Source: a virus. Taken from it: a DNA stretch of 64,000 nt. The position numbers were made by a program, and so were the translations under genes. Shown piece after piece: positions 871-40,740 of the stretch. The stretch is from positions 1 through 64,000 of the IMG/VR virus record IMGVR_UViG_3300042691_015010, one strand, 5' to 3'. The notes below the pieces were generated by a model. It was given only the letters and a program-made list of their open reading frames with translations. It was not told the DNA's origin and did no database searches. Position 1 is the stretch's first letter, and each line of letters begins with the position of its first letter.

Positions 871-883
871 GATAAAAAAATAC

Positions 884-1178: not shown

Positions 1179-1254
1179 GGGAGTATAGTCAAACGGTTAA
1201 GACAGCGGACTTTTAATCCGTCAGGTCAGGGTTCGAATCCCTGTGCTCCCACCA
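1179..1254 (+). tRNA. tRNA-Lys (anticodon TTT)
   Basis: The acceptor GGGAGTA pairs with TGCTCCC, with one mismatch-tolerant pair. The anticodon loop is CTTTTAA, the T-arm is CAGGGTTCGAATCCCTG, and CCA is encoded. The CCA end can also pair into the hairpin that follows (see 1252-1387). Confidence 0.95.
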
Positions 1255-1387
1255 TATAAAAACACATTAGTTCTAAGGGTTGTTCCGAAGGTAATTATCT
1301 TCCATGAAGTCCTAGTGTGTTTCTATATGGTAGCAGTGAAGATGTGGCCGAAACGTAAAATGAAGCCAAACCCCTGGCTGTTACCAT
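1252..1387 (+). ncRNA. Structured spacer RNA between tRNA-Lys and tRNA-Asp
   Basis: This gene-free spacer folds in two ways. The arms 1252-1270 and 1312-1330 give an 18-of-19-position stem (one A-C mismatch, one G-U). The arms 1327-1336 and 1378-1387 give a 10-bp stem. The two share 1327-1330, so they cannot both form completely. It contains no plausible ORF and no tRNA fold. It could be a processing signal between tRNAs, or a small stable RNA like the two non-tRNA stable RNAs known from the T4 tRNA cluster. Its function is inferred only from structure. Confidence 0.5.
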
Positions 1388-1397
1388 GCTTTATTAT

Positions 1398-1475
1398 GGC
1401 ACTTTAGCATAGCTGGCCTAATGCGCCGCCCTGTCACGGCGGAGATCACGGGTTCGAATCCCGTAAGTGTCGCCA
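1398..1475 (+). tRNA. tRNA-Asp (anticodon GTC)
   Basis: The acceptor GGCACTT pairs with AAGTGTC, with one G-U. The anticodon stem CCGCC/GGCGG holds the loop CTGTCAC. The T-arm is ACGGGTTCGAATCCCGT, and CCA is encoded. Confidence 0.95.
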
Positions 1476-1482
1476 GAATTAT

Positions 1483-1560
1483 TGTGGGCTACCGTTCTAG
1501 GTGAGGCGGGTCTGACTGTTAATCAGAAATAGATTGGTTCGAATCCAATGCCCACAGCCA
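1483..1560 (+). tRNA. tRNA-Asn (anticodon GTT)
   Basis: The acceptor TGTGGGC pairs perfectly with GCCCACA. The anticodon stem TCTGA/TCAGA holds the loop CTGTTAA. The T-arm is ATTGGTTCGAATCCAAT, and CCA is encoded. Confidence 0.95.
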
Positions 1561-1570
1561 GTTTTTTGTA

Positions 1571-1700
1571 GTTGCTTTATTTGTGTTATTTGTAAGCCAT
1601 GGGTTCGATCAAACCTGAGTAACTATGTACACAAACGGTAAATCCGGCCGGACACTCCGTTGAGCATAGCAAATAGTGCAGATAACACAAATAATGTAAC
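1571..1700 (+). ncRNA. Structured spacer RNA between tRNA-Asn and tRNA-Gln
   Basis: A perfect 13-bp outer stem (1577-1589 with 1682-1694) can be extended by GTT/AAC at 1571-1573 and 1698-1700. Inside it are nested complements: CTATG with CATAG, and ACGG with CCGT flanking a CCGGCCGG palindrome. There is no ORF and no tRNA fold, although a GGTTCGATCAAACC stretch resembles a T-arm. It may be a second stable small RNA or a spacer that positions cleavage of the polycistronic tRNA transcript. The role is inferred. Confidence 0.5.
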
Positions 1701-1703
1701 TGT

Positions 1704-1777
1704 TGGGGATTAGTTAAATGGTATAACCACGGATTTTGATTCCGTTGTCGTAAGTTCGATTCTTACATCCCCTGCCA
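1704..1777 (+). tRNA. tRNA-Gln (anticodon TTG)
   Basis: The acceptor TGGGGAT faces ATCCCCT. The first pair is U-U, an open end that suits glutamine tRNAs. The anticodon stem ACGGA/TCCGT holds the loop TTTTGAT. CCA is encoded. Confidence 0.93.
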
Positions 1778-1786
1778 AAAGAATAT

Positions 1787-1871
1787 GGGTGACGAGCAGC
1801 ACTGGTGACTGCACCTGACTGTAAATCAGACGCCTCCGGCATACTTGGTTCGACTCCAAGGTTACCCACCA
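1787..1871 (+). tRNA. tRNA-Tyr (anticodon GTA)
   Basis: This is an 85-nt type II tRNA with a long variable arm. The acceptor GGGTGAC pairs with GTTACCC. The D-stem is GCAG/CTGC, the anticodon loop is CTGTAAA and the T-arm is CTTGGTTCGACTCCAAG. CCA is encoded. Confidence 0.95.
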
Positions 1872-1878
1872 AGTTTTA

Positions 1879-1954
1879 CGGTCTTTAGTAAAATGGATGA
1901 TTACGGCGGGCTACGGACCCGCAGGTGGGAGTTCGATTCTCTCAGGACCGGCCA
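1879..1954 (+). tRNA. tRNA-Arg (anticodon ACG)
   Basis: The acceptor CGGTCTT pairs with AGGACCG. The anticodon stem GCGGG/CCCGC holds the loop CTACGGA. In bacteria the ACG wobble base is normally edited to inosine by host TadA, so this tRNA would read CGU, CGC and CGA. CCA is encoded. Confidence 0.94.
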
Positions 1955-1960
1955 GAATAT

Positions 1961-2036
1961 GGGGGATTGGTGCTAATTGGGAACACATGTGCTTTGCAAG
2001 CATGAGTAAGCAGTTCGAATCTGCTATCCTCCACCA
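1961..2036 (+). tRNA. tRNA-Ala (anticodon TGC)
   Basis: The acceptor GGGGGAT pairs with ATCCTCC, with one G-U. The anticodon loop is TTTGCAA and the T-arm is AGCAGTTCGAATCTGCT. CCA is encoded. Confidence 0.94.
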
Positions 2037-2045
2037 TAGTTTTAT

Positions 2046-2120
2046 GCCGGATTAGCTCAGTGGTAGAGCAACCGCCTTGTAAGCGGTAGGTCGTCAGTTC
2101 GAATCCGACATCCGGCACCA
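2046..2120 (+). tRNA. tRNA-Thr (anticodon TGT)
   Basis: The acceptor GCCGGAT pairs perfectly with ATCCGGC. The anticodon stem ACCGC/GCGGT holds the loop CTTGTAA. The D-arm is canonical (GCTCAGTGGTAGAGC). CCA is encoded. Confidence 0.96.
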
Positions 2121-2127
2121 GTTTTAT

Positions 2128-2203
2128 CGCAGAGTATGGAAGTGGTCATCCGCTTGGTCTCATAAGCCGAGAATCGTAGGTTCGAATCCTACCTCTGCAA
2201 CCA
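2128..2203 (+). tRNA. tRNA-Met (CAT), initiator-like
   Basis: The anticodon loop is CTCATAA. The acceptor CGCAGAG faces CTCTGCA, giving a C1-A72 mismatch, the hallmark of bacterial initiator tRNA. The anticodon stem TTGGT/GCCGA has two of the three G-C pairs expected in initiators; the third is U-G. A second CAT tRNA at 4812 has a fully paired acceptor and looks like the elongator. This one is therefore probably tRNA-fMet, but an isoleucine tRNA with modified CAT cannot be excluded. CCA is encoded, and the next gene starts 14 nt later. Confidence 0.85.
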
Positions 2204-2217
2204 ATAAGGTGAACATT

Positions 2218-2838
2218 ATGAAGTTAAGTGACAAAAACGTTAAACTTGCTTATAATATAGTTGTAGGAAAAACAGAAGAATTTGATAAAAGGGATGAAGA
2301 TTATAAAAATCTTATGCTTTCTTATTTAAATGATGTTAATTCTTCCTCATTACGAGAAGCAATAACATGTTATGTTTGTGGATATACATGGAATACAGAA
2401 AAACATGGCGAAGATGGAACTAATCCCATTACAAATCAACGAATTGAATGTAAACCTAAATTACACTTAACTAAACATTGTAATGGTGGTGGTATGTTCA
2501 ATGATATGACAATTCAGAGAGTTGAACAACACTTAAAAAATGATGTGCAGATTGTGTGCAGTATTTTTTCACACAATCGTTTAATTTATGTTGTAGAATT
2601 TCCCTTTGCTGATATATCGGAACATATTAAAAATAGGATTAACAAAAGAAAAAAAGATTCAAGGTCATCTCCTTCTTTTTCATACACAAGTTATATGGGG
2701 TTACCCAATTTGAAAATTCATCATGTGGATTTAGAATCGATAAATAATTTTAAATGTTTAAGTAAAAATCATTATCGTATGTTAATTGAGCAAATAAATG
2801 GAAATACCACAAACAATTTATCAGAATTTTTTAAATAA
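2218..2838 (+). CDS. Putative PD-(D/E)XK restriction endonuclease-like protein
   Basis: This 206-residue protein of AT-rich codon usage was not recognised as a named family. Acidic residues E61, E65 and D66 (followed by Gly) precede an IECK tetrad at 76-79. Together they resemble the D...(D/E)XK metal site of type II restriction enzymes. C51-x2-C54 and H87/C88 might bind a metal. The start at 2218 was chosen because AAGGTG ends 7 nt upstream; a GTG at 2209 is also in frame. The 3' end overlaps the start of a DNA methyltransferase by 41 nt, the usual layout of a restriction-modification pair. It could instead be another AT-rich accessory protein; the nuclease call is inference. Confidence 0.5.
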   Translation: MKLSDKNVKLAYNIVVGKTEEFDKRDEDYKNLMLSYLNDVNSSSLREAITCYVCGYTWNTEKHGEDGTNPITNQRIECKPKLHLTKHCNGGGMFNDMTIQRVEQHLKNDVQIVCSIFSHNRLIYVVEFPFADISEHIKNRINKRKKDSRSSPSFSYTSYMGLPNLKIHHVDLESINNFKCLSKNHYRMLIEQINGNTTNNLSEFFK

Positions 2839-3808
2839 AAGAAATTCAATTAGAAATTTGCAAGATCAAGATTTTGAAAATATTATTGAACGATTGGCAT
2901 CGGAATTGTCTAAGATTGATTATCACATCACTTATGATGATCTTTCTTTGTTAAATGATTGGAAAAAATTAAAAATTTGGAGTACGGAAGAAAATATAAT
3001 CAATTCCACTAATAGAATTGGAATGAAACTATGTGAACATTTTTTCCCAAACTTTTACGATATAAAAAACAATAGAGGAGAAAGTTTTTCTTCATTATGG
3101 AATAAAAACAATTTAATAAAAATATTGAGATGGAATAGAAAAAGTCACTCTACTCCTTATTTGTCGGAATTAAAAAGAGGAATTTATTTTTGTTGTGGAC
3201 TAACAAAAAATACTATGTTTCGTCCACAAGTGGCAAAAATGATATGTGATCGTTATAAACCTAATGTCGTTTTTGATCCATGTGCTGGTTGGGGTGGTAG
3301 ATTGTTGGGTGTAGTTTCTTCAGGTTCAAAGTATATTGGATTTGAACCAAATACTAAAACTTTTGGAAGTCTGCAAAATATGGTAAAGTTTCTTTCTATT
3401 GAGAATCAAGTGATGTTAATTTGCGACGATGCTTTAAATATGAAAAAATATGATTTACCTAAAGTTGATATGATACTCACTAGCCCACCATATTTTGATT
3501 TGGAGATTTATTCGGATGAAGAGACACAATCACATAAAAATAGATTGTCTTATGATGATTGGTCAAAACATTTTTTAAATGAAATAATAATTCAAAGTAA
3601 TCAATTGTTGAACGATGGTGGAGTTAGTTGTTGGAACGTTGGTAAAGTTGGAAAAAATAATATGTTTGATTGCGTTGAAAAATATCAAAGTGAGTTGGGA
3701 TTTAGAAAGACAACAAACTTTGGTGTTTTAAGTAGTAAAAGACAAGCACTACAAAAAAATGATGGCAATAAAAGTTTTGATAATACTGTTTGTTATATAA
3801 AAAACTAG
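2798..3808 (+). CDS. DNA methyltransferase (N4-cytosine or N6-adenine type)
   Basis: The 336-residue protein has an AdoMet-binding motif I, DPCAGWGGRLLG (160-171), and a catalytic motif IV, TSPPYF (228-233). TSPPY-type motifs are typical of amino-methyltransferases, most often N4-cytosine. The N-terminal 130 residues are Lys/Asn-rich and may hold the target-recognition part. The gene is much more AT-rich than its neighbours and sits inside the tRNA array with a putative endonuclease overlapping its 5' end, which suggests a block acquired by transfer. It may protect phage DNA, complete a restriction system, or modify host DNA. Confidence 0.85.
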   Translation: MEIPQTIYQNFLNKRNSIRNLQDQDFENIIERLASELSKIDYHITYDDLSLLNDWKKLKIWSTEENIINSTNRIGMKLCEHFFPNFYDIKNNRGESFSSLWNKNNLIKILRWNRKSHSTPYLSELKRGIYFCCGLTKNTMFRPQVAKMICDRYKPNVVFDPCAGWGGRLLGVVSSGSKYIGFEPNTKTFGSLQNMVKFLSIENQVMLICDDALNMKKYDLPKVDMILTSPPYFDLEIYSDEETQSHKNRLSYDDWSKHFLNEIIIQSNQLLNDGGVSCWNVGKVGKNNMFDCVEKYQSELGFRKTTNFGVLSSKRQALQKNDGNKSFDNTVCYIKN

Positions 3809-3829
3809 AAATTTATTTGAGTTGTAAAC

Positions 3830-4297
3830 ATGAAAAAAGAAATTGACATAAATGAAGTGGCTGCATTTCTTGATACATGCGGCCCTGATACAAAAGTTTA
3901 TATTGGTGCAGACTCAGAACGTTTTCAAATAAACGGTGAATGGTTTGCTGATTACATTCTAGCAGTGGTGATACATATTGATGGTCGCCACGGTTGTAAG
4001 ATATTTGGTGCAGTTCAACGTGAACGAGATTTTGAACAAAAGAAAAATCGTCCACGGCTGCGTTTGATGAATGAGGTATACAAAGTTTCGGATCTATATC
4101 TAAAACTTTATGATGCAATACCTCATGATATTCAAGTGCATCTGGATATTAATCCAAGTGAAATGCATGGTAGTTCATGTGTGGTAAATGAAGCGATTGG
4201 TTATATCAAAGGTACATGTAATGTGATACCATTGATCAAACCAAAAGCATTTGCAGCAAGTTATGCGGCTGATCGTTTCAAAAGTTTAGCAGCATAG
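3830..4297 (+). CDS. YkuK/DUF458-like ribonuclease H-fold protein
   Basis: The 155-residue product contains VYIGADSERF (22-31), RERDFEQKKNRPRLRLMNEVYKVSDL and VHLDINPSE followed by HGSSCVVNEAIGYIKGT. These blocks match the DUF458 (B. subtilis YkuK-like) family common in T4-like marine phages, which is predicted to have an RNase H-like fold. The conserved acidic residues (D28, E30, E45, D129) fit a metal site, but no activity is established. It follows the methyltransferase closely and precedes the second half of the tRNA array. Confidence 0.75.
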   Translation: MKKEIDINEVAAFLDTCGPDTKVYIGADSERFQINGEWFADYILAVVIHIDGRHGCKIFGAVQRERDFEQKKNRPRLRLMNEVYKVSDLYLKLYDAIPHDIQVHLDINPSEMHGSSCVVNEAIGYIKGTCNVIPLIKPKAFAASYAADRFKSLAA

Positions 4298-4307
4298 AAA
4301 AGGTAAT

Positions 4308-4382
4308 GCGGGTATAGCACAGTGGTAGTGCGAAACGTTGCCAACGTTTAGGTCATCAGTTCGAATCTGATTATCCGCTCCA
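4308..4382 (+). tRNA. tRNA-Gly (anticodon GCC)
   Basis: The acceptor GCGGGTA pairs with TATCCGC. The anticodon stem AAACG/CGTTT holds the loop TTGCCAA, and CCA is encoded. A second glycine tRNA (TCC) lies at 6730, so the phage covers all four Gly codons, which fits its very glycine-rich fibres. Confidence 0.95.
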
Positions 4383-4387
4383 GGTAT

Positions 4388-4461
4388 TCCGGTGTAGTAT
4401 AATGGCAGTGCGGCAGTCTCCAAAACTGTTAGTGGGAGTTCGATTCTCTCCACCGGAGCCA
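4388..4461 (+). tRNA. tRNA-Trp (anticodon CCA)
   Basis: The acceptor TCCGGTG pairs with CACCGGA. The anticodon loop is CTCCAAA, flanked by GCAGT/ACTGT. The T-arm is GGGAGTTCGATTCTCTC-like, and CCA is encoded. Confidence 0.94.
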
Positions 4462-4465
4462 GAAT

Positions 4466-4560
4466 GGTAGACAGCACTGGTGTGCGGCGGAGATTTATAA
4501 ACTCTGGAGAGTGGTCAGATGGGCTGCAACGGCTAGGTTCAAATCCTAGGTCTACTACCA
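4466..4560 (+). tRNA. Aberrant tRNA-like sequence, anticodon unresolved
   Basis: The acceptor GGTAGAC pairs with GTCTACT, the T-arm CTAGGTTCAAATCCTAG is perfect and ACCA follows, so the 3' half is a good tRNA. The middle is abnormal. CGGAG/CTCTG encloses a nine-base loop centred on TAT, the D-arm is short (GCA/TGC), and about 26 nt replace a normal variable region. By strict position the anticodon would be TAT (Ile, AUA). It may be a degenerating type II tRNA or one with an insertion. Confidence 0.5.
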
Positions 4561-4572
4561 GTGTTCTTTGGT

Positions 4573-4646
4573 GTGACCATAGTGTAATGGTAGCACTAGA
4601 CATTGTGACTGTCTCAGTTCGGATTCAAATTCCGATGGTCACCCCA
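4573..4646 (+). tRNA. tRNA-His (anticodon GTG)
   Basis: The acceptor GTGACCA pairs with TGGTCAC. The discriminator is C73, normal for bacterial tRNA-His. The base before the acceptor is T, not the usual encoded G-1. The anticodon stem AGACA/TGTCT holds the loop TTGTGAC. CCA is encoded. Confidence 0.92.
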
Positions 4647-4655
4647 AAGAAAATT

Positions 4656-4731
4656 GGTGCTTTAGCTGATGTGGTCATAGCGGTGGCCTGAAGAGCCATG
4701 GAAGTTAGTTCGATTCTAACAGGCACCACCA
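4656..4731 (+). tRNA. tRNA-Phe (anticodon GAA)
   Basis: The acceptor GGTGCTT pairs with AGGCACC. The anticodon stem GTGGC/GCCAT holds the loop CTGAAGA. The T-arm is GTTAGTTCGATTCTAAC, and CCA is encoded. Confidence 0.94.
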
Positions 4732-4732
4732 T

Positions 4733-4806
4733 TGTCCTGTAGTTAAATGGTATAACTGTCGATTGATAATCGACCATTACAAGTTCAATTCTTGTCGGGA
4801 CAACCA
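4733..4806 (+). tRNA. tRNA-Ile (anticodon GAT)
   Basis: The acceptor TGTCCTG pairs with CGGGACA. The anticodon stem GTCGA/TCGAC is perfect around the loop TTGATAA. CCA is encoded. It starts 2 nt after tRNA-Phe ends. Confidence 0.95.
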
Positions 4807-4811
4807 GAATT

Positions 4812-4886
4812 GGTAATGTAGCATAACGGTAGTGCACCTCCTTCATACGGAGTAAAGTGTAAGTTCGATTCTTACCATTACCACCA
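4812..4886 (+). tRNA. tRNA-Met (anticodon CAT), elongator-like
   Basis: The acceptor GGTAATG pairs perfectly with CATTACC, without the C1-A72 mismatch seen at 2128. The anticodon stem CTCC/GGAG holds the loop TTCATAC. It could be elongator methionine, or an isoleucine tRNA if C34 is modified to lysidine. CCA is encoded. Confidence 0.93.
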
Positions 4887-4887
4887 T

Positions 4888-4972
4888 GCGGATATGATGT
4901 AATTGGTAGCCATGCGGTCCTTAGAAGTCCGTGCCGAAGGGCGTGGGGGTTCAAGTCCCTCTATCCGCACCA
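4888..4972 (+). tRNA. tRNA-Leu (anticodon TAG)
   Basis: This is an 85-nt type II tRNA. The acceptor GCGGATA pairs perfectly with TATCCGC. The anticodon stem CGGTC/GTCCG has one T-T mismatch and holds the loop CTTAGAA. A long variable arm (GCCGAAGGGC) and CCA are present. Confidence 0.94.
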
Positions 4973-4983
4973 AACACTCACCC

Positions 4984-5019
4984 TTGTATACGGTGTATAA
5001 TGAGATAAGTAGTATACAA
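4984..5019. other. Inverted repeat with an embedded -10-like box
   Basis: TTGTATAC at 4984-4991 is exactly complementary to GTATACAA at 5012-5019. TATAAT at 4996-5001 lies in the loop, but no good -35 box is found 16-18 bp upstream. It separates tRNA-Leu from tRNA-Val and may be a weak promoter, a processing hairpin or an operator-like dyad. Confidence 0.4.
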
Positions 5020-5028
5020 ACGATTTTT

Positions 5029-5102
5029 GGCCCGTTAGTTTAATGGAAGAACTTCATCCTTACACGGTGATTACGGCAGTTCGATTCTGTCACGGGCTAC
5101 CA
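5029..5102 (+). tRNA. tRNA-Val (anticodon TAC)
   Basis: The acceptor GGCCCGT pairs with ACGGGCT, with a G-U first pair. The anticodon stem TCATC/GGTGA holds the loop CTTACAC. CCA is encoded. Confidence 0.94.
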
Positions 5103-5103
5103 T

Positions 5104-5181
5104 GGTAAGATGGCAGAGTGGTCCAATGCAAGGGTCTGCAAAACCCTAAAGCCGTCGGTTCAAATCCGACTCTTACCTCCA
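5104..5181 (+). tRNA. tRNA-Cys (anticodon GCA)
   Basis: The acceptor GGTAAGA pairs perfectly with TCTTACC. The anticodon stem AGGGT/ACCCT holds the loop CTGCAAA. The T-arm is GTCGGTTCAAATCCGAC. The discriminator is T, usual for Cys. CCA is encoded. Confidence 0.95.
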
Positions 5182-5187
5182 GATTAC

Positions 5188-5279
5188 GGAAGTGTGCCAG
5201 AGTCCGGTTTATTGGAACAGTCTTGAAAACTGTCGTGGGTTTACGCTCACCGTGAGTTCGAATCTCACCGCTTCCGCCA
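5188..5279 (+). tRNA. tRNA-Ser (anticodon TGA)
   Basis: This is a 92-nt type II tRNA with a long variable arm. The acceptor GGAAGTG pairs with CGCTTCC. The anticodon stem ACAGT/ACTGT holds the loop CTTGAAA. The discriminator is G, usual for Ser. CCA is encoded. Confidence 0.95.
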
Positions 5280-5283
5280 AATT

Positions 5284-5409
5284 ATGCTGATACTAACTAC
5301 ATTTTTAAAAATGATTGGATACTGGATTCTTTTTGGAATTAGTGTCGGAACTTTTTTATTTTTGATGTATGGTATAGCTTACGTTATTGGAGAGTTGGCA
5401 GAGTGGTAA
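5284..5409 (+). CDS. Putative 41-residue single-span membrane peptide
   Basis: An ATG at 5284 opens a 41-codon frame whose product is almost entirely hydrophobic between residues 2 and 36 (for example WILFGISVGTFLFLMYGIAYVIG), ending GELAEW. The TAA stop falls inside tRNA-Ser(GCT), so the last seven codons overlap the tRNA. There is no strong ribosome binding site before the ATG. The long hydrophobic run argues against a random ORF, but low-GC spacer DNA can mimic this. No function is assigned. Confidence 0.45.
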   Translation: MLILTTFLKMIGYWILFGISVGTFLFLMYGIAYVIGELAEW

Positions 5410-5475
5410 TGCAGTGAATTGCTAATTCATCGCTCAGAAATGGGCGCATAGGTTCGAATCCTATACTCTCCGCCA
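5389..5475 (+). tRNA. tRNA-Ser (anticodon GCT)
   Basis: This is an 87-nt type II tRNA. The acceptor GGAGAGT pairs perfectly with ACTCTCC. The anticodon stem TGAA/TTCA holds the loop TTGCTAA. The T-arm is ATAGGTTCGAATCCTAT and the discriminator is G. CCA is encoded. Confidence 0.95.
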
Positions 5476-5493
5476 TTACAATTTTGACAACAC

Positions 5494-5522
5494 TTGACAA
5501 TGTTTTTCGGATATCGTATAAT
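5494..5522 (+). promoter_or_regulatory. Perfect consensus sigma70 promoter
   Basis: TTGACA at 5494-5499 and TATAAT at 5517-5522 are separated by 17 bp. It lies directly after the tRNA array and drives the small-gene block that leads to rubrerythrin and pqqA. Confidence 0.92.
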
Positions 5523-5546
5523 GATTGTTATATGTTGGAGAACGAT

Positions 5547-5699
5547 ATGAAAGCGAAAACAAACAAACTAAACAAACCACGTAACTTTGTAGCAAAAGAC
5601 CTATTCACGCCAAAATACCGAATGAAGGTAGAAGTGAATACCTATAAACGTGCAGTTGAGAAACAAACTTTACGAAAGCAATCGCATGTTCTTTTCTAA
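5547..5699 (+). CDS. Small basic phage protein (DUF7230-like)
   Basis: The 50-residue Lys/Arg-rich product contains NKPRNFVAKDLFTPKYR, which resembles a family of tiny basic phage proteins. The ATG at 5547 was chosen because GGAG ends 6 nt upstream and because earlier in-frame codons lie at or before the expected transcription start. It is the first gene after the strong promoter, as expected for an early gene. Its end overlaps the next gene by 14 nt. The high positive charge suggests nucleic-acid or RNA-polymerase contact, but this is only an inference. Confidence 0.65.
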   Translation: MKAKTNKLNKPRNFVAKDLFTPKYRMKVEVNTYKRAVEKQTLRKQSHVLF

Positions 5700-6123
5700 A
5701 AAAGAAGTTGACGAACCCGCCGATCCTGTTGTCACGAATGATGAGATGAACAGATTTGACGGGTTTTATTTTATTCCTGATTCCGATGATTTTGAAGATA
5801 ACTATAAAATGATTTTCTTCAATATGAAAGAAGAGTATTCTAATTCAACACCAGTTGAAACGTCAGAAATGGGTTTGAAGTATCATCTATGTTTTTTCAA
5901 AACTGATGAAAATGGTGCACCAGAACTAGATGATGCATTTGAGGCAATATTGGTTGATCCCATACAATATGTGAAAAATCTTACTGGCTCAGGTATTGGT
6001 GGTTGTGTACTAAAGAAAACAGATAAATCGGATGGTTGGTGGACAGATTATCTAGATTATCTTACAGGTGGTGAGTTTAAGCAGAAAGTAAAAGAAGCAT
6101 TTGGTTCTATTGCAGACAATTGA
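5686..6123 (+). CDS. Hypothetical acidic phage protein
   Basis: The 145-residue product is acidic (many Asp/Glu in DSDDFEDNYKMIFF and neighbouring stretches) and has no signal peptide, membrane segment or recognised motif. I do not recognise the family. A GTG at 5650 is in frame, but the ATG at 5686 is preferred because it gives a short overlap with the upstream gene. It belongs to the early block between the tRNA array and rubrerythrin. Confidence 0.6.
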   Translation: MFFSKKEVDEPADPVVTNDEMNRFDGFYFIPDSDDFEDNYKMIFFNMKEEYSNSTPVETSEMGLKYHLCFFKTDENGAPELDDAFEAILVDPIQYVKNLTGSGIGGCVLKKTDKSDGWWTDYLDYLTGGEFKQKVKEAFGSIADN

Positions 6124-6137
6124 TTAGGAGATATATT

Positions 6138-6431
6138 ATGACGAACGTTTTTAGTGGTGAATTGAAAGAAGTAAAAAAAGGTCGTAAATGGTTGATCGGT
6201 TTACTTGAAAGTGAAGTTGTTGAAGTGGAATTCACAAAGAAAGATGGCACAAATCGTGTGATGCGTTGTACATTACAGGAAGATTATTTGCCTGAAGTAG
6301 AAGAAGCAATTCTAATTGAAAAAGACAAATGGAAAAAAGACTCTATTGCGGTCTTTGATATTGAGAAAGAAGGTTGGCGTTCATTTCGTTGGGATTCTAT
6401 CAAAACGGTGAAGTTTACTCTTGGAGATTAA
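6138..6431 (+). CDS. WYL-like / SH3-fold small phage protein
   Basis: The 97-residue product carries VEFTKKDGTNRVMRCTL (about 37-53) and a C-terminal WRSFRWDSIKTVKF. This is the pattern of a small SH3-barrel family frequent in T4-like cyanophages and pelagiphages (often called WYL_2 or DUF2693). The start at 6138 is supported by TAGGAG 8 nt upstream. The family is thought to bind nucleic acid or ligands, but its role in phages is unproven. It is translated from the same block as its neighbours. Confidence 0.7.
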   Translation: MTNVFSGELKEVKKGRKWLIGLLESEVVEVEFTKKDGTNRVMRCTLQEDYLPEVEEAILIEKDKWKKDSIAVFDIEKEGWRSFRWDSIKTVKFTLGD

Positions 6432-6432
6432 T

Positions 6433-6723
6433 ATGCCTAAGTATATTGTAGAACAGATTTCCGTACATCGTAATGTATATGTTGTGGAAGCAGAGAATGA
6501 AGTAGAAGCAAAGAAAATTGCATCCGTTGCTGATGACAATTGGCAAGCATGGCTCGGTCATCTTGATGTTGATGTAAACGAATATTCAGATGAACGAATT
6601 GCTTATTTCAAACACAAAGATTACTTCTGGGATGGTGTATCATACAAAGATGAGAATGGCTATCTTGCATATATACATCCGTCGGGTGAAAGAATAGAAC
6701 GTAGAGAAATTCCCATCAAATAA
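6433..6723 (+). CDS. Hypothetical phage protein
   Basis: The 96-residue product begins with a beta-rich stretch (KYIVEQISVHRNVYVVEAENEVEAKKIA), of the kind seen in small ferredoxin-like or 'YIVE...V.A.sE.EA' domains of phage proteins. The C-terminal half is rich in Tyr, Asp and Trp. GGAG ends 8 nt before the ATG, and the start overlaps nothing. There is no catalytic motif. It precedes a tRNA-Gly gene by only 6 nt, so the tRNA is probably cut from the same transcript. Confidence 0.6.
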   Translation: MPKYIVEQISVHRNVYVVEAENEVEAKKIASVADDNWQAWLGHLDVDVNEYSDERIAYFKHKDYFWDGVSYKDENGYLAYIHPSGERIERREIPIK

Positions 6724-6729
6724 GTCAAT

Positions 6730-6806
6730 GCGGGCATAGTGTTCAACGGTTAGCACGTGAGCCTTCCAAGCTTGAAGTAGGAGTTCGAATCTCCCTGCCC
6801 GCTCCA
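6730..6806 (+). tRNA. tRNA-Gly (anticodon TCC)
   Basis: The acceptor GCGGGCA pairs perfectly with TGCCCGC. The anticodon loop is CTTCCAA. The T-arm is AGGAGTTCGAATCTCCC-like, and CCA is encoded. It lies apart from the main array, between two protein genes, and reads GGA/GGG. Confidence 0.95.
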
Positions 6807-6816: not shown

Positions 6817-7008
6817 ATGAAATCGTGGACACTAGAAGTAAAACAAATAGAAGATGGCGATTACATATTAGAATTCAATGATGAGATTCTGGCCGAGACT
6901 GGCTGGAAAGAAGGTGATAATCTCACATGGATAGACAACGGTGATGGTTCTTGGACGCTAAAAAAATTAGACGAGAATCATGAAAATACTGAGCAGAATC
7001 AAGAGTAG
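6817..7008 (+). CDS. AbrB-like small phage protein
   Basis: The 63-residue product has WTLEVKQIEDGDYILEF, then AETGWKEGDNLTWIDNGDGSWTLKK. The order of strands and the GW-EGD-L-W motif resemble the swapped-hairpin (AbrB/MazE-like) small proteins found in many phages. The acidic C-terminus (ENHENTEQNQE) is a tail. AAAGG ends 6 nt before the ATG. If it binds DNA it could be a regulator of the early block, but there is no direct evidence. Confidence 0.6.
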   Translation: MKSWTLEVKQIEDGDYILEFNDEILAETGWKEGDNLTWIDNGDGSWTLKKLDENHENTEQNQE

Positions 7009-7035
7009 TTTTTATTATATAATATAGGAGACATT

Positions 7036-7467
7036 ATGAGTTTAAAAGGTACAAAAACAGCGGAGTGCTTGAAAGAGGCTTTTGCTGGTGAATCAATGGC
7101 AAATCGTCGTTATCTGTATTTCGCAAATCAATGTGATATTTCAGGTGAAAACGAATTAGCATCATTGTTCCGTTCTACTGCTGAAGGTGAAACTGGTCAC
7201 GCACATGGTCATATGGAATATTTGATTGAAGGTGGTGCAGGTGAACCCGGCACAGGTATGCCAGCAAAAACTGGTAAAGAAATGCTTGAAGCAGCAATCA
7301 GTGGTGAAACACATGAATACTCTGACATGTATCCTGGCATGGCAAAGATTGCACGTGAAGAAGGTTTTGATGAAGTTGCAGATTGGTTTGAAACATTAGC
7401 CAAAGCAGAACGCTCACATGCTAATCGTTATCAAAAAGCATTAGACAAACATCTTTCTGAACAATAA
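7036..7467 (+). CDS. Rubrerythrin (diiron peroxidase domain only)
   Basis: The 143-residue ferritin-like four-helix protein has the expected ligand motifs: E14/E18 in [17 protein letters not shown]-x2-H at [10 protein letters not shown] (about 50-59), E-x2-H at [11 protein letters not shown] and E-x2-H at [10 protein letters not shown] near the C-terminus. It lacks the C-terminal rubredoxin domain of classical rubrerythrin, like the 'erythrin' forms. It would reduce peroxide or handle iron in the cytoplasm. TAGGAG precedes the ATG by 7 nt. As an auxiliary metabolic gene it may protect the infected cell from oxidative stress. pqqA follows 9 nt downstream. Confidence 0.93.
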
Positions 7468-7476
7468 GGGGAAACT

Positions 7477-7551
7477 ATGAAGTGGACTACACCTGCTGCA
7501 CAAGATATGCGTTTTGGTTTTGAAATCACAATGTATATTGCAAATCGTTAA
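7477..7551 (+). CDS. pqqA: PqqA, PQQ precursor peptide
   Basis: This is a 24-codon gene with AAGGGG 7 nt before the ATG. The product has the complete PqqA pattern: an N-terminal MKW-x2-P-A, then D-x-R-x-G, and the diagnostic E-x3-Y (E16 and Y20 in FEITMYIANR). Cellular PqqA peptides of 23-29 residues end the same way. PqqE, a radical SAM enzyme, links the Glu and Tyr side chains while PqqD holds the peptide; the linked residues become pyrroloquinoline quinone. No pqqB, C, D or E is seen in this window, so the host must supply them. The gene is co-directional with rubrerythrin and followed at once by a terminator. Confidence 0.9.
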   Translation: MKWTTPAAQDMRFGFEITMYIANR

Positions 7552-7554: not shown

Positions 7555-7580
7555 AAAAGCGGCTACCAAGCCGCTTTTTT
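7555..7580. terminator. Bidirectional terminator between pqqA and the minus-strand genes
   Basis: GCGGCT (7559-7564) pairs with AGCCGC (7569-7574) around a four-base loop. It is flanked by AAAA upstream and TTTTTT downstream, so it works in both directions. It ends the pqqA transcript and the converging transcript of the minus-strand pair. Confidence 0.92.
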
Positions 7581-7748
7581 GTTCCACTTTGCTTTTATTC
7601 TAAACTCGGAATCGTTTTTCATATTCTTCAAAGCAGCATTTACTTGTACTGCCAATTTACAATCTTTGGTAACAAGAATTAGATTATTACCTTTGTTGGT
7701 GTAAACGTAATATGTTTCTTCATCTTCAATATATTCAACGTACATCAT
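7563..7748 (-). CDS. Hypothetical small protein
   Basis: The 61-residue product starts MMYVEYIEDEETYYVYTNKGN, contains KDCKLAVQVNAALKNM and ends in a basic tail (KWNKKAAW). No family is recognised. It shares a four-base ATGA overlap with the upstream 264-residue gene on the same strand, so the two are translated together. Its last codons lie in the bidirectional terminator. Confidence 0.6.
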   Translation of the reverse strand: MMYVEYIEDEETYYVYTNKGNNLILVTKDCKLAVQVNAALKNMKNDSEFRIKAKWNKKAAW

Positions 7749-11016: not shown

Positions 11017-11510
11017 GAATAGTCGTTGTCTCTGGTGGTTTTGATCCCATTCATTCAGGTCATCTTGCAATGCTGCGTGAAGCAGCGGGCATGGGCGACA
11101 AACTAATCGTTGGTGTAAACTCCGACATCTGGCTCACACGCAAGAAAGGCAAACCGTTCATGAACATACATGAACGCAAGGCTATTCTGCAAGCAATTCG
11201 TTGGGTAGATGAAGTGTTGGAGTTTGACGATTCTGATGGTACTGCATGTGAATTACTTGAACGAGTAATATCATATTATACAACACGAATATATGAAAGT
11301 CATGAGTTTATTTTCGCAAACGGCGGAGATAGAACTGAAGAAAACAATGCCGAAGCAAATGTACCTGGATGGCAATTTGCTTATGGTGTTGGTGGTAGTG
11401 ATAAAAGGAATTCATCATCTTGGTTATTGAGGAGCTGGAATGAAAGTAGCGATAGTGACACCGACCATAGGTTCAGATTATTTGGAGAAGTGCGTAGAGT
11501 CAATCCGTAA
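11013..11510 (+). CDS. Cytidylyltransferase-family nucleotidyltransferase
   Basis: The 165-residue protein begins VVSGGFDPIHSGHLAML; GFDPIHSGH is the HxGH nucleotide-binding motif of the glycerol-3-phosphate cytidylyltransferase / ADP-heptose synthase (RfaE domain II) superfamily. VGVNSD, ERKAIL and GGDR further support this. It would activate a sugar or polyol phosphate with a nucleotide. The usual family core ends near SSSWLLRSW; the last ~20 residues overlap the next gene by 71 nt in another frame, so the tail may be non-conserved. It starts a cassette of sugar genes. Confidence 0.85.
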   Translation: MRIVVVSGGFDPIHSGHLAMLREAAGMGDKLIVGVNSDIWLTRKKGKPFMNIHERKAILQAIRWVDEVLEFDDSDGTACELLERVISYYTTRIYESHEFIFANGGDRTEENNAEANVPGWQFAYGVGGSDKRNSSSWLLRSWNESSDSDTDHRFRLFGEVRRVNP

Positions 11511-12198
11511 TCAAACTTATGAAAATCTAACACATTATATTTTTGTTGATGGTGACGAATATACAGACAAAGTTATAGAAGTCACAAAAAATATTTCTGA
11601 TGAAAAAATAAAAGGAGTATTTCTTGAAGAGAATGTTGGCAAAGGTTGGTACGGGCATCGTGTATATGCTGCATGTGGTTTTCTTGTCAATGCTGATGTT
11701 GTATGTTATCTTGACGAAGATAATTGGTTTGAACCTAATCATGTTGAGAAACTTGTGGAGAGAATCCAAAAAGGTGCTGATTGGGCATACTCACTGAGAA
11801 AGATTGTTGATAAAGAAGGTAATTATGTTTGTGATGATAACTGTGAATCATTAGGCCAATGGCCAATCTATTTCAATCCCGATGCATATCATATTGATAC
11901 TTCATCATTCATGGTGAAGGCTGATATTGCCCGTAAACTTGGTGCAGCATGGTATGGACAGTGGGGTGCAGATCGCCAGTTCTTCAATGCACTGAAGCAA
12001 TATTTTCCAAACTTTGCATGTTCAAAACAGTATTCGTTGAACTATCGGTTAGATGGTAATCCTAATTCTGTGAATGCAGAGTTCTTTGATAAAGGTAATG
12101 CAGAAAACGCCAAACAATATCCAGATGGCTTTCCTTGGCAAAAGCAATACTCTGAAGAGTATATTGTAGGTCCTGGTATAACAATAGTGAGTGGATAA
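11440..12198 (+). CDS. Family 2 glycosyltransferase
   Basis: The 252-residue GT-A fold protein begins MKVAIVTPTIGSDYLEKCVESIRNQTY, the standard GT2 opening. It has a metal-binding DxD-like motif at YLDEDNWFEP (about 89-98) and a later acidic WGADRQF that may hold the catalytic base. It would transfer a nucleotide-activated sugar onto an acceptor, in the cytoplasm or at the membrane. GAGGAG lies 6 nt before the ATG. Neighbouring nucleotidyltransferase, epimerase and cupin genes suggest that the donor sugar is made by the phage itself. Confidence 0.88.
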   Translation: MKVAIVTPTIGSDYLEKCVESIRNQTYENLTHYIFVDGDEYTDKVIEVTKNISDEKIKGVFLEENVGKGWYGHRVYAACGFLVNADVVCYLDEDNWFEPNHVEKLVERIQKGADWAYSLRKIVDKEGNYVCDDNCESLGQWPIYFNPDAYHIDTSSFMVKADIARKLGAAWYGQWGADRQFFNALKQYFPNFACSKQYSLNYRLDGNPNSVNAEFFDKGNAENAKQYPDGFPWQKQYSEEYIVGPGITIVSG

Positions 12199-12398
12199 TG
12201 TCAGAAACACATAAGAGAACGATTGTTCGTGCAATCAGTTGGCGTATCGTAGCAACATTAGTTACAGCAGCATTTACAGGACTGTCTGGTGCTATTATCA
12301 TCAATATTTGGATGACTGTTGCACATTACATTCACGAAAGAGCATGGTTGAAATTGAATTGGGGAAAAATAAATGAAAGTGCAGAACACGGAGATTGA
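12198..12398 (+). CDS. DUF2061-type small membrane protein
   Basis: The 66-residue product has RTIVRAISWRIVATLVTAAFTGLSGAIIINIWMT followed by YIHERAW and WGK, the order seen in DUF2061 membrane proteins. Two short hydrophobic spans are likely. TAA of the glycosyltransferase overlaps its ATG. DUF2061 proteins accompany sulphate or sugar nucleotide genes in bacteria, but their role is unknown; here it sits inside the glycan cassette and may anchor or assist it. Confidence 0.75.
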   Translation: MSETHKRTIVRAISWRIVATLVTAAFTGLSGAIIINIWMTVAHYIHERAWLKLNWGKINESAEHGD

Positions 12399-12870
12399 AG
12401 GACTAAAAGTTATTCAACCGATAGTGTATGAAGATTATCGTGGCACAAACTTTGAATCATACAACAAGTTTACCTATCATCATGATGACATCACACACTC
12501 ATTTGTAGTAGATAGCATTTCAACATCACGCAAGCATGTTCTTCGTGGTATTCATGGTGATGACAAAACCACAAAGCTAGTTTCATGTTTATATGGTACA
12601 ATTTTTGTTGTGGTAGTTGATACTAGATATCCGTCAAGAACTTTTAGGGTGTATGAAACATTTACTTTGTCTGATAGAAACAAACATCAATTGTTGATTC
12701 CACCTGGGTGTGGTAATGCTCACTTAGTTATGTCTGACGAGTGTGTATTCAGTTACAAACTTGATCAATATTATGATCGTGATTCACAGTTTACAATCAA
12801 GTGGAATGATCCGATGTATAACATTCCTTGGCCTATAAAAAATCCTATTTTGTCAGAAAGAGATAGATGA
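12373..12870 (+). CDS. RfbC-like cupin sugar epimerase
   Basis: The 165-residue cupin has EDYRG (20-24), SRKHVLRGIHGDDKTTKLV (52-70) and LIPPGCGNAHLV (110-121), the conserved blocks of dTDP-4-dehydrorhamnose 3,5-epimerase relatives. H59/H62-type histidines and the Arg of VLRG fit the active site. It would epimerise or isomerise a 4-keto nucleotide sugar. It overlaps DUF2061 by 26 nt and the following epimerase by ATGA. Confidence 0.82.
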   Translation: MKVQNTEIEGLKVIQPIVYEDYRGTNFESYNKFTYHHDDITHSFVVDSISTSRKHVLRGIHGDDKTTKLVSCLYGTIFVVVVDTRYPSRTFRVYETFTLSDRNKHQLLIPPGCGNAHLVMSDECVFSYKLDQYYDRDSQFTIKWNDPMYNIPWPIKNPILSERDR

Positions 12871-13841
12871 GAACAGCACTTGTTACTGGTGGTGCAGGTT
12901 ATCTTGGATCACACTTAGCAAAAGCACTGAAGCAAGCAGGATATTACACATTTTGTTTTGATTTGAAACTCCCAGAAAATAGAAAGTATTGGGACAATCA
13001 AATCATGGGTGATATTCGTAGTCGTGAAGATTTAGATGAAGTATTTGAAAAGTTTGGTCGAATACATAAACAAAAGTTTGATGTAGTATTTCATCTTGCC
13101 GGACTCATTGAAGTTGGCGAATCTGTCAACGAGCCTGAAGAATATTGGCAAACAAACGTAGGTGGCACTTGCAATCTACTTACCACAATGAAATCATATA
13201 ATGTTAGGAATATTGTTTACTCTTCTACTGCTGGGCTTTATCGTTCGACTGGGACGGACCTATCAGAAAAAGATCAAATAGCAGAAAACAATCCGTATGC
13301 AAACAGCAAACATGCTGCGGAATGTGCAATCCGTAATTCAACTATGAATTATGTTATCTTTAGATTTTTCAATCTTGCTGGTGCTGATCCAGAATGTGAG
13401 ATGGGTGAATGCCATGATCCAGAAACACACTTGATTCCGGCAATGTTTGAAAATCTAAATAACTTTGTTATCAATGGTGATGGATACAGAACTGTTGATG
13501 GAACTTGTGTTCGTGATTATGTGCACGTATCGGATGTTGCTGATGCACATATTCTAGCCGACAACTATTTACAAACACGATTATCAAACCAACCAAGATT
13601 ATTCAATCTAGGCACTGGAAAAGGTCACACTATTTTACAAGTGATTGACGCTGCTGAAAAAGAATTGAAAGTCAAAGTAGACTATTCTTTTGGTCCAAGA
13701 AGAGAGGGTGATCCTCCACGATTGGTCGCAATTCCAGACCTTGCCAAAACATTTCTAAACTTCAAACCTAAACATAATTTGACATCTATTTTGAGAACGG
13801 CATATAATTGGTATGAGCACCGAAACAGAAATACAATTTGA
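12867..13841 (+). CDS. NAD-dependent nucleotide-sugar epimerase (GalE-like SDR)
   Basis: The 324-residue extended SDR has the Rossmann motif TGGAGYLGSH (7-16), FHLAG (74-78), the catalytic SST (118-120) and Y143-x3-K147 in NPYANSKHAAE. RFFNLAGADP and the later RDYVHVSDVADAH are GalE/UDP-sugar epimerase signatures. It would interconvert UDP- or dTDP-sugars at C4 with bound NAD. It ends inside the start of the ClpP-like gene (29-nt overlap), closing the sugar cassette. Confidence 0.9.
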   Translation: MRTALVTGGAGYLGSHLAKALKQAGYYTFCFDLKLPENRKYWDNQIMGDIRSREDLDEVFEKFGRIHKQKFDVVFHLAGLIEVGESVNEPEEYWQTNVGGTCNLLTTMKSYNVRNIVYSSTAGLYRSTGTDLSEKDQIAENNPYANSKHAAECAIRNSTMNYVIFRFFNLAGADPECEMGECHDPETHLIPAMFENLNNFVINGDGYRTVDGTCVRDYVHVSDVADAHILADNYLQTRLSNQPRLFNLGTGKGHTILQVIDAAEKELKVKVDYSFGPRREGDPPRLVAIPDLAKTFLNFKPKHNLTSILRTAYNWYEHRNRNTI

Positions 13842-14343
13842 TCATTATGCACATTTTCTTTCGGGTAATATTGATCCGATGAACATTGAGGCTGCTTCAC
13901 GATGGTTACTATATGCCAAGTTCAACAAGATAGAAAAACCATTGACACTTCACATAAACTCCGAGGGTGGTGATCTAGGTGATGCCATTGGTCTTGTTGA
14001 TCTGATGCGTGGACTTGGTGTCACTGTCCGTACACTTGGCTATGGTAATGTGTTGAGTGCTGGCTTTATGATATTTGCTGCTGGCCAAAAAGGTTACAGA
14101 GCCATAGGCAAAAACACAACAATCATGATTCATCAATTCAATGACGGATTTGATGGCAAGTATCACGACATGAAAGCATATGCCAAAGAGTGTGACAGAT
14201 ACAACAAAAAGATGGAACAGATATTGTCCGAGTGTTCCAATCTTACAGTCAAGGATGTGAGAACGAAACTTCTAAAGTCAACTGATGTCTGGTTGTCGGC
14301 CGAAGAGTTATTAGAGTATGGTATTGCTGATATTATCTTTTAG
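13813..14343 (+). CDS. ClpP-like serine protease
   Basis: The 176-residue protein has the ClpP catalytic triad: S82 in GNVLSAGF, H107 in IMIHQF and D159 in DVWLSAEELLEYG. LHINSEGGDLGDAIGLVDLM is the family's oxyanion/handle region. Phage ClpP homologues occur in marine T4-like phages. It could form a tetradecamer and work with host ClpX/A, or process phage proteins, but no phage ATPase partner is visible in this window. It shares 29 nt with the epimerase gene. Confidence 0.88.
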   Translation: MSTETEIQFDHYAHFLSGNIDPMNIEAASRWLLYAKFNKIEKPLTLHINSEGGDLGDAIGLVDLMRGLGVTVRTLGYGNVLSAGFMIFAAGQKGYRAIGKNTTIMIHQFNDGFDGKYHDMKAYAKECDRYNKKMEQILSECSNLTVKDVRTKLLKSTDVWLSAEELLEYGIADIIF

Positions 14344-23635: not shown

Positions 23636-23827
23636 ATGCATGAAGTGGCAAGAAAATTAGCAGAGAAATCTGGATATAATGTGAAGTACACTGAGACACA
23701 ACATAATGGTCATATCATGAGAAATCTTTTGGATACATATGCCCGTAATGTTGCACGTGAATGTGCTGCTTTAGTTGATACGGAAGAAGATAAGCAGAAG
23801 ATACTAAATCATTTTGATATCAAATAG
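23636..23827 (+). CDS. Small hypothetical phage protein
   Basis: The 63-residue helical protein (HEVARKLAEKSGYNVKYTETQHNGH; LLDTYARNVARECAALVDTEEDKQKILNHFDIK) starts 3 nt after the previous stop. Similar short proteins occur in T4-like marine phages. There is no known motif. It ends just before the permuted tmRNA, and the two are probably transcribed together. Confidence 0.6.
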   Translation: MHEVARKLAEKSGYNVKYTETQHNGHIMRNLLDTYARNVARECAALVDTEEDKQKILNHFDIK

Positions 23828-23893
23828 AATTGTTGTAACTCCTTCAAAGTGAAGGCATTCTGGACGGCGGTTCAATTCCGCCCAGCTCCACCA

Positions 23894-23960
23894 GAAACAC
23901 ATAGTTGTCCTAGATGAAAGAAACCTCTGAGGGCTCTAGCGGGGATTGTGTGTTTCTGAT
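23894..23960 (+). other. Intervening segment of the permuted tmRNA precursor
   Basis: These 67 nt separate CCA from the tmRNA 5' end. AGAAACACA (23893-23901) pairs with TGTGTTTCT (23950-23958), so the precursor is closed by a hairpin. In known permuted tmRNAs such a loop is removed by host RNases to leave two paired RNA pieces. CTAG repeats (23910-23913, 23936-23939) can pair inside it. Confidence 0.8.
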
Positions 23961-24044
23961 GGGGCTGACCTGGTTTCGACAGGGTGAGATAGTGGAGAAG
24001 GCAACACAGTAGGCGATGACTGTAAATCAAGCAAATCTATAAAT

Positions 24045-24086
24045 GCAAATGACGCATTTTACGGTGAGGATCGCCTAGCGGCGTAA
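24045..24086 (+). other. tmRNA proteolysis-tag reading frame
   Basis: From the resume codon GCA at 24045 the frame reads ANDAFYGEDRLAA followed by TAA. The AND start and LAA end are those of proteobacterial ssrA tags recognised by ClpXP-type proteases. The centre (AFYGEDR) is unlike the common tags I recall. Confidence 0.88.
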
Positions 24087-24102
24087 CTTACATGGGGTCT
24101 GA

Positions 24103-24140
24103 GGGAGTGTACCTTATTACCAAAACACTCCCACCAATTT
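24103..24140 (+). terminator. Hairpin at the 3' end of the permuted tmRNA
   Basis: GGGAGTG (24103-24109) pairs perfectly with CACTCCC (24126-24132), followed by ACCAATTTTATT. The T tract is weak and interrupted, so this may be a terminator or the terminal helix of the coding piece. Confidence 0.55.
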
Positions 24141-24149
24141 TATTATATT

Positions 24150-38679: not shown

Positions 38680-40740
38680 ATGGCAGATCGTTTAAGAATA
38701 ACCGAGCTTGACTTTGATACGATCAAGCAAAATCTAAAAACATTTTTAAATCAGCAATCAGAGTTTACTGACTATGACTTTGAAGGTTCTGGTCTATCCG
38801 TTCTATTAGATATTCTTGCTTATAATACACATTATCAGGCATATTATCTGAATATGGTGGCAAATGAAGCATTTATGGATACTGCATTGCTTCGTGAATC
38901 TGTAATATCACATGCTAAAACATTAGGCTATGTTCCTTATTCACGTAAAGCACCACGTGCTGTAATCAATTTTACTGCAAATACCAATTCAAATACATCA
39001 TCTACTTTAACTCTACCAAAAGGATTTAGATTCTTATCAAACGATATTGATGGTATAAGTTATTCGTTTGTAACACTAGCTGAAACAAAAGTAACAAAAT
39101 CAAATACAAGTTTTTCTTTTGTGAATCTTCCAATTTATGAAGGACAGTTGGTAACATATTCATATAATCACAATCAAGCCACAAATCCAAAACAGATTTT
39201 TACTTTGCCAGATGATAGTGTAGATACTACAACTATTTCAATAACAGTTCAGCCTTCATCAACAAACACAGAGATTTCCGTATATTCTTTGGCCACAGAC
39301 GCAAGTAATACAAATACTCAATCTGAAGTTTTTTACTTACAAGAGGGCAAAGCACAACAATATCAAATCTATTTTGGCGACAACGTGATTGGCAAGAAAC
39401 TTCCTGATGGAGCGATTGTTAATATCAGTTATTTGGTAACAAATGGTGATGCGTCAAATAAAGCAAACAACTTTGTTGCCACTGGAACAGTTACAGATTC
39501 TTTGAATAATACATTATCAAACTTTGTTATTGATCCTGTATCAGAGGCGGCTGGTGGTTCAGATCGTGAATCAGTGGACAATATTAAGTTTGCTGCGCCA
39601 TTACAATTTACAACTCAGAATCGTCTGGTGACGTTTAAAGATTATGAGACATACATTCAAAAGAGTTATCCTGCTATAACGTCTGTATCTGTTTGGGGCG
39701 GTGAAGATGAAACGCCACCAACTTTTGGCACTGTGTATGTTGCACTAAGACCAAAAGAAAATTACTATTTGTCGGACACAGAGAAGCAAAGAATCATTGA
39801 TGAGATTATCAAGCCTAAAGCGGTGGTTGCAGTGCAAACAATCATTCGTGATCCAGAATATCTGTATCTTTTGATTTCCGCTGATGTAAGTTACGATAAA
39901 AATAAAACTACACTTACGGAAGAACAACTAAAGACAGCAATCAGAAATGCCATTTTACAATACAAAACAACTTATCTTGACAAGTTCTCTGGCAAGTTTG
40001 TAGAGTCAAGAGTTCAAGATGCAATTGATGCTGTAGATAGAAATGCTATTTTAGGCAGCACAATTGTTACACGTGTACAGAAAAGAATTACACCTGATGT
40101 GACAGCAGCAGTTCCATATACGATTGATTTTGGTGTACCACTCCGTAGAGGCACAATTGGTAATAAACTTGAATCAACATTCTTTACCGTTGCTGATGCT
40201 GAAGGTATAGATCGTTCAGTGCAATTTGATGAAATACCACAATCATTTTCTGGTATTAGTGCAGTCAAAGTAATCAATCCTGGTCAGGGATACATTAGTC
40301 AACCAACAGTGACGATTGAGGGTGATGGTGAAGGTGCAAACGCTGTTGCTGTAATCGTGAATGGAGCAATTCAAAGTATTGATGTGACGAATCGTGGTAT
40401 TGATTACACACGTGCTACTGTTACTATTTCTGGTGGAGGTGGTTATGGAGCATCTGCTACGGCAGTTATTGATGGTCGTGTTGGTACTATTCGTACTGTA
40501 TATTATGATGCTAGAGCACAGCGTCAAATTGTAGATGATAATGCTGGTGAGATTGATTATGATACCGGAGTCGTGAAGATTTCAAACATTCTAATTAAAG
40601 ATGTTGATTCTGTTGATGGCGATATTCGTCTTTCAATTGAGTCAGAAAAAGGTATACTAAGTACAATCAAAAATAACATCATCACGATTGATGAGAATGA
40701 TCCAACATCTATTAGTACAACTCTACAAGCAGCAAAATGA
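38680..40740 (+). CDS. 6: Baseplate wedge protein gp6 (gpJ-like)
   Basis: The 686-residue protein starts LRITELDFDTIKQNLKTFLNQQSEFTDYDFEGSGLSVLLDILAYNTHYQAYYLNMVANEAFMDTA, the typical gp6 opening. Residues ~290-400 (GGSDRESVDNIKFAAPLQFTTQNRLVTFKDYETYI) are a baseplate_J-like domain. The C-terminal 150 residues have Gly-rich beta repeats (INPGQGYISQPTVTIEGDGEGA; NRGIDYTRATVTISGGGGYGA), a short module also seen in the next giant protein. It forms the inner iris of the baseplate. Confidence 0.92.
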   Translation: MADRLRITELDFDTIKQNLKTFLNQQSEFTDYDFEGSGLSVLLDILAYNTHYQAYYLNMVANEAFMDTALLRESVISHAKTLGYVPYSRKAPRAVINFTANTNSNTSSTLTLPKGFRFLSNDIDGISYSFVTLAETKVTKSNTSFSFVNLPIYEGQLVTYSYNHNQATNPKQIFTLPDDSVDTTTISITVQPSSTNTEISVYSLATDASNTNTQSEVFYLQEGKAQQYQIYFGDNVIGKKLPDGAIVNISYLVTNGDASNKANNFVATGTVTDSLNNTLSNFVIDPVSEAAGGSDRESVDNIKFAAPLQFTTQNRLVTFKDYETYIQKSYPAITSVSVWGGEDETPPTFGTVYVALRPKENYYLSDTEKQRIIDEIIKPKAVVAVQTIIRDPEYLYLLISADVSYDKNKTTLTEEQLKTAIRNAILQYKTTYLDKFSGKFVESRVQDAIDAVDRNAILGSTIVTRVQKRITPDVTAAVPYTIDFGVPLRRGTIGNKLESTFFTVADAEGIDRSVQFDEIPQSFSGISAVKVINPGQGYISQPTVTIEGDGEGANAVAVIVNGAIQSIDVTNRGIDYTRATVTISGGGGYGASATAVIDGRVGTIRTVYYDARAQRQIVDDNAGEIDYDTGVVKISNILIKDVDSVDGDIRLSIESEKGILSTIKNNIITIDENDPTSISTTLQAAK

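Follow-up and report, generated by a model that had tools for sequence, protein, structure and literature searches.

A lone pqqA gene behind rubrerythrin in a T4-like phage, with intact relatives in many aquatic phages

A gene for PqqA, the precursor peptide of the cofactor PQQ, was found in the genome of a T4-like phage, where it lies between a rubrerythrin gene (PF02915) and a hairpin with a T-tract, the arrangement described in the initial annotation. The window analyzed here is a stretch of 64,000 nucleotides, positions 1 to 64,000 of the 70,001-base virus record IMGVR_UViG_3300042691_015010. It contains the following features.

6984..7035, plus strand: putative leader of the rubrerythrin-pqqA unit, with a TAAATA late-promoter-like box in several relatives that is degenerate in the window
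7036..7467, plus strand: rubrerythrin gene, upstream partner of pqqA (PF02915, 90 bits; 80 viral relatives)
7468..7472, plus strand: ribosome binding site GGGGA of pqqA (sequence and alignment)
7477..7551, plus strand: pqqA, 24 codons, MKWTTPAAQDMRFGFEITMYIANR (PF08042 and TIGR02107 scores; Glu and Tyr invariant in relatives)
7556..7581, plus strand: intrinsic terminator hairpin and T-tract, present also in relatives without pqqA (fold and alignment)
23761..24142, plus strand: permuted tmRNA of betaproteobacterial type (Rfam RF01850, 146.5 bits; RF04321, 151.6 bits)
38680..40740, plus strand: T4-like baseplate wedge protein, gp6 (PHROG 219, 532 bits)

The boundaries of the open reading frame match 7477-7551 (+) exactly. 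In profile searches its peptide scored 38.9 bits against Pfam PF08042 (PqqA; cut-off, 21.1; E value, 7.8e-10) and 39.1 bits against the NCBIfam equivalog TIGR02107 (cut-off, 20; E value, 4.8e-10), nearly twice the bits required by either curated model. A six-frame search of the whole 70,001-base record returned this one match above the cut-off, and the same search of 14 control genomes returned no PqqA match. With 24 codons, its own start, and the ribosome binding site that had been claimed for it (GGGGA here, AAGGAGA in most aligned relatives), the gene falls within the usual size of PqqA (about 20 to 30 residues), and its E-x3-Y spacing is formed by Glu16 and Tyr20, which we take to be the residues converted to PQQ. 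On this sequence evidence, the identification of 7477-7551 as a real pqqA is confirmed far beyond chance, and intact copies recur in considerably more than 100 viral contigs.

The start of pqqA lies 9 bases past the stop codon of rubrerythrin, and the two genes presumably belong to one transcription unit. Directly 3' of pqqA, the GC-rich hairpin at 7556-7581 with its T-tract has a predicted folding energy of -15 kcal/mol (z score, -4.8); it is absent from the output of a simple terminator scan. A sigma-70 promoter scan of the pqqA locus gave sites no more numerous than in shuffled sequences. TAAATA is the core of the T4-like late promoter, and 15 of its 50 occurrences in the window sit 10 to 70 bases before a gene start, the top value among 15 hexamers of the same composition. 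Because TAAATA boxes precede rubrerythrin in several relatives, late expression of the rubrerythrin-pqqA unit is suggested for those phages; the window's own copy is degenerate. As a speculation, rubrerythrin might clear peroxide arising from PQQ synthesis or oxidation, a pairing too loose to rely on.

The window encodes the baseplate wedge, hub, tail tube, and tube cap proteins of a T4-like myovirus, so that the host-type metabolic gene sits in a genuine phage genome, as it does in isolated phages that also carry pqqA. The best named relatives of its gp6 are those of the Melnitz phages of Methylophilales, at 39.5%, and it is also near those of the Pelagibacter phages HTVC008M and Mosig. By DNA, no nearest phage could be assigned, the listed matches being only tRNA-sized pieces. 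The genome also carries 23 tRNA genes at 794-6806 (+), in two main blocks covering nearly all amino acids, a tmRNA at 23761-24142 (+) for which ARAGORN gives the tag ANDAFYGEDRLAA, and a sugar-modification cluster at 11440-14343 (+) with a glycosyltransferase-like open reading frame, a dTDP-sugar epimerase, and an NAD-dependent epimerase, after which comes a ClpP-like protease. The proposal that the phage has pqqA without pqqBCDE was borne out: the search for pqqB-E elsewhere in the window found none, and no pqqBCDE-like gene was detected in 200 viral loci. The locus is not a PQQ operon, in which pqqA is followed by pqqBCDE. No PQQ-dehydrogenase domain was found in the 70,001-base record, which is itself probably part of a larger genome.

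A motif scan of viral contigs, the search that the initial annotation had called for, recovered at least 120 with the pqqA motif, and every one of the 120 listed encodes an intact PqqA. A tblastn search of 50,697 phage records revealed pqqA in nine records of isolated methylophages (Melnitz, four times; P19250A; Venkman; MEP301; MEP401; and MEP402), in differing genome contexts, as well as in a spring podovirus. The suspicion that a gene this short escapes annotation proved correct in all nine methylophage records; none of the tblastn phage matches is annotated as pqqA, the features listed there being hypothetical proteins, and no mention of phage pqqA was found in the papers describing Melnitz, MEP401/402, MEP301, and Venkman. 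In Melnitz-1 (L002 3967-4062, minus strand; MZ577095.1), the true pqqA was overlooked because an open reading frame antisense to it had been annotated on the opposite strand. A 356,312-base viral record of jumbo-phage size (L113) also carries pqqA, with the sequence MWTKPTAQEMRFGFEITMYVMNR.

Melnitz-1, P19250A, and 30 large viral records with pqqA gave no PqqE above the cut-off. Five records gave weak radical-SAM matches (16 to 38 bits versus a cut-off of 381), which were rejected as PqqE, and the controls match as well. In one pqqA-bearing record of 214,237 bases (that of L393), five radical-SAM-like matches cluster at about 71.6 to 83.2 kb. Acinetobacter phage MD-2021a was likewise rejected as a phage PQQ operon: its sequence (L004, CAKLQF020000010.1, 1-8072) contains ppk and pqqABCDE beside ordinary bacterial genes and resembles a bacterial chromosome.

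Amino acid sequence comparisons separate the viral peptides into two flavors that, judged from similarity, correspond to two host groups. Many are identical to chromosomal PqqA of Methylophilales (MWTTPAATEMRFGFEVTMYVMNK and variants). The window type ends in FEITMYIANR, as in Burkholderiales outside Methylophilales, and the window's peptide is 88% identical to copies from Derxia, Oxalobacteraceae, and Rhodoferax versus 65 to 74% to those of Methylophilales. Window-type genes do not appear to be recent pick-ups, because they share at most 88% DNA identity with any of 126 cellular genes. For the window's phage, the most likely host is a Burkholderiales betaproteobacterium that makes PQQ, as suggested by the PqqA similarity and the betaproteobacterial tmRNA. 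Counting against this assignment, no pqqA match was obtained in G060, G183, and G303, the genomes whose tmRNA matches best; the tmRNA matches to genomes are weak, partial, and about 100 bases long, and host assignment by such matches was abandoned. The link to a PQQ-making host drawn in the initial annotation agrees with the phage's relatives, which infect PQQ users. Its suggestion of methanol oxidation as the target is likely to hold for the Methylophilales phages; this phage, whose PqqA is Burkholderiales-like, may have a different host and dehydrogenase.

The order rubrerythrin-pqqA, whose conservation was to be checked, holds in one sub-lineage only. Of the 80 viral relatives of the rubrerythrin, eleven besides the window have pqqA no more than 120 bases downstream. 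In four contigs (L011, L012, L013, and L030), alignment places the same terminator directly after the same rubrerythrin, with the pqqA segment cleanly absent. Rubrerythrin lies directly upstream in about a quarter of the window-type loci with enough upstream sequence and in none of the Methylophilales-type loci, and a fixed pair was therefore rejected. In 12 other contigs, a window-type pqqA precedes a gene related to that at 24880-25152 of the window; in nine Methylophilales-type contigs (L133, L455, and seven further), the nearest gene upstream is that of the major head protein; and in Melnitz, a tRNA follows pqqA in the neighborhood of the baseplate hub gene. Because close relatives lack exactly pqqA and others carry it elsewhere, the gene is, by these comparisons, a movable cassette.

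Selection was assessed with search patterns in which just the first half of the gene is fixed and the C-terminal half is left free, which guards against circularity; the loci were either newly found or already collected, and some contigs count as more than one locus. A normal stop and no premature stop were found in all 85 window-type and 79 Methylophilales-type loci; one further pattern match, in which the rest of the peptide is missing, was discarded as chance. Glu and Tyr are invariant in the 47 window-type and 74 Methylophilales-type distinct DNA sequences (121 in total), among which silent sites vary freely. The ratio pN/pS is 0.138 for the window type and 0.106 for the Methylophilales type, values expected of an auxiliary metabolic gene maintained by selection. 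Since the search pattern limits in part how far codons 3 to 13 can vary, the value of 0.05 for codons 12 to 24 of the window type is the fairer one. These substitution patterns show strong purifying selection on phage pqqA. Of the signs that had been named as arguing against function, namely, stop codons in related phages, loss of E16 or Y20, and a Ka/Ks near 1, none appeared. Gain, loss, and relocation combined with a strongly conserved peptide are, in such comparisons, the mark of a selected accessory gene.

One PqqA is consumed for each PQQ made and PqqB to PqqE are reusable catalysts, and for this reason a phage would need to supply only PqqA. We consider it highly probable that phage pqqA is functional and is retained as an auxiliary metabolic gene, which would provide the host's PqqBCDE enzymes with the substrate that they use up. 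During infection, the peptide would be made from the rubrerythrin-pqqA mRNA and taken up by host PqqD, and host PqqE would then cross-link Glu16 and Tyr20; that PqqE, acting with PqqD, joins the Glu and Tyr of PqqA is established (as cited in PMC7678222 and PMC9851590). Trimming of the peptide and the action of PqqB and PqqC would complete PQQ. With PqqA alone, at a cost of 24 codons, a lytic phage could in this way prolong PQQ production while it silences transcription in its host, and sustained PQQ would keep periplasmic PQQ-dependent dehydrogenases running and electrons flowing for phage production. We infer that phage PqqA raises the PQQ supply. Hosts pull the same lever, multiplying pqqA only: Methylophilaceae have 3 to 12 pqqA copies and usually one pqqBCDE (PMC4109929), one Methylophilus genome was found to have 5 copies, and one separate copy in the strain of PMC9851590 ranks among the most highly expressed. 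Counting against this account, published overexpression of pqq genes gave mixed PQQ gains, so that precursor may not always be limiting, and close relatives of the phage manage without pqqA.

Phages can also divert host pathways, and phage PqqA, known from its sequence, might instead be a decoy, tying up PqqD/PqqE and switching off the PQQ-dependent metabolism of the host, or might become a different modified peptide. We regard this as unlikely, since in a decoy one would expect the binding part to persist and Glu or Tyr to disappear, and both residues are invariant in 121 of 121 distinct genes; the amplification of pqqA copy number in hosts also argues for supply. Somewhat less likely still is the idea, put forward for the Lake Baikal phages, that the main user of phage pqqA is a PQQ dehydrogenase encoded by the phage itself. 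One viral record of 72,356 bases (that of L127) does pair pqqA with a methanol/ethanol dehydrogenase (L501 1084-2958; TIGR03075, 608 bits; a curli-like gene adjoins), the same pairing is reported for VP_266 (PMC7678222), and, with the window's record covering 70 kb of what is probably a larger genome, a dehydrogenase could sit in the missing part. However, of 30 large viral records with pqqA, just one has a PQQ_2-domain protein, and the window's record, Melnitz-1, and P19250A have none; the usual client would therefore be the host's dehydrogenase. That pqqA is a passenger, recently captured host DNA of no gain to the phage, is very improbable: Methylophilales-type phage peptides are often letter-for-letter host PqqA and 7 of 74 such genes are at least 97% DNA-identical to a cellular copy, but window-type genes stay at or below 88%, recur across phage lineages and genome positions, are broken in 0 of 85 loci, and, with a pN/pS of about 0.1, are under strong purifying selection.

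Returning to substrate supply, many related aquatic phages carry pqqA, almost always unannotated, which suggests the topping up of a consumable ingredient of host energy metabolism. We lean toward the broader reading that lone pqqA is widespread, repeatedly acquired, and overlooked, and that phages of PQQ-dependent bacteria deliver a host-matched substrate, not an enzyme, as a general strategy. Most auxiliary metabolic genes encode enzymes; phage pqqA would encode the substrate of a ribosomal-peptide-derived cofactor and, at 24 codons, is perhaps the smallest metabolic gene possible for a phage. It would tie phage infection to the oxidation of methanol, and possibly of other alcohols or sugars, in freshwater and marine bacteria. 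For phages that otherwise lack an assigned host, its sequence offers a hint of what that host is, and the case shows that a whole class of phage genes can stay hidden from standard gene calling.

Phage PqqA is, as a kind, already known from earlier reports made in passing (PMC7678222, PMC13188868). In a Lake Baikal T4-like phage, PqqA was reported in 2020 together with methanol dehydrogenase (PMC7678222). Like the window, the Lake Baikal VP_139 and VP_266 are T4-like phages that encode PqqA, for which a boost to PQQ-dependent methanol oxidation was proposed, but VP_266 adds methanol dehydrogenase and was assigned to Methylophilaceae, whereas in the window a solitary pqqA of the Burkholderiales type follows rubrerythrin. 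A reservoir sediment study of 2026 also found pqqA in viral contigs, but there viral pqqA, pqqD, and pqqE are only items in a list of phosphorus-cycle auxiliary metabolic genes, read as phosphate solubilization (PMC13188868). The orphan pqqA genes of Methylophilaceae are similar in being extra copies beside a single pqqBCDE cluster, but they are chromosomal rather than phage-borne and have the flavor FEVTMYVMNK (PMC4109929). The Methylophilales phages Melnitz, P19250A, Venkman, MEP301, and MEP401/402 are isolated phages with an intact pqqA, in their case unannotated and of the Methylophilales flavor or a near variant. Beside these systems, what appears to be new is the abundance of phage pqqA, its unannotated presence in isolated methylophages, a second host-matched flavor, purifying selection, and a substrate gene carried without its enzymes.
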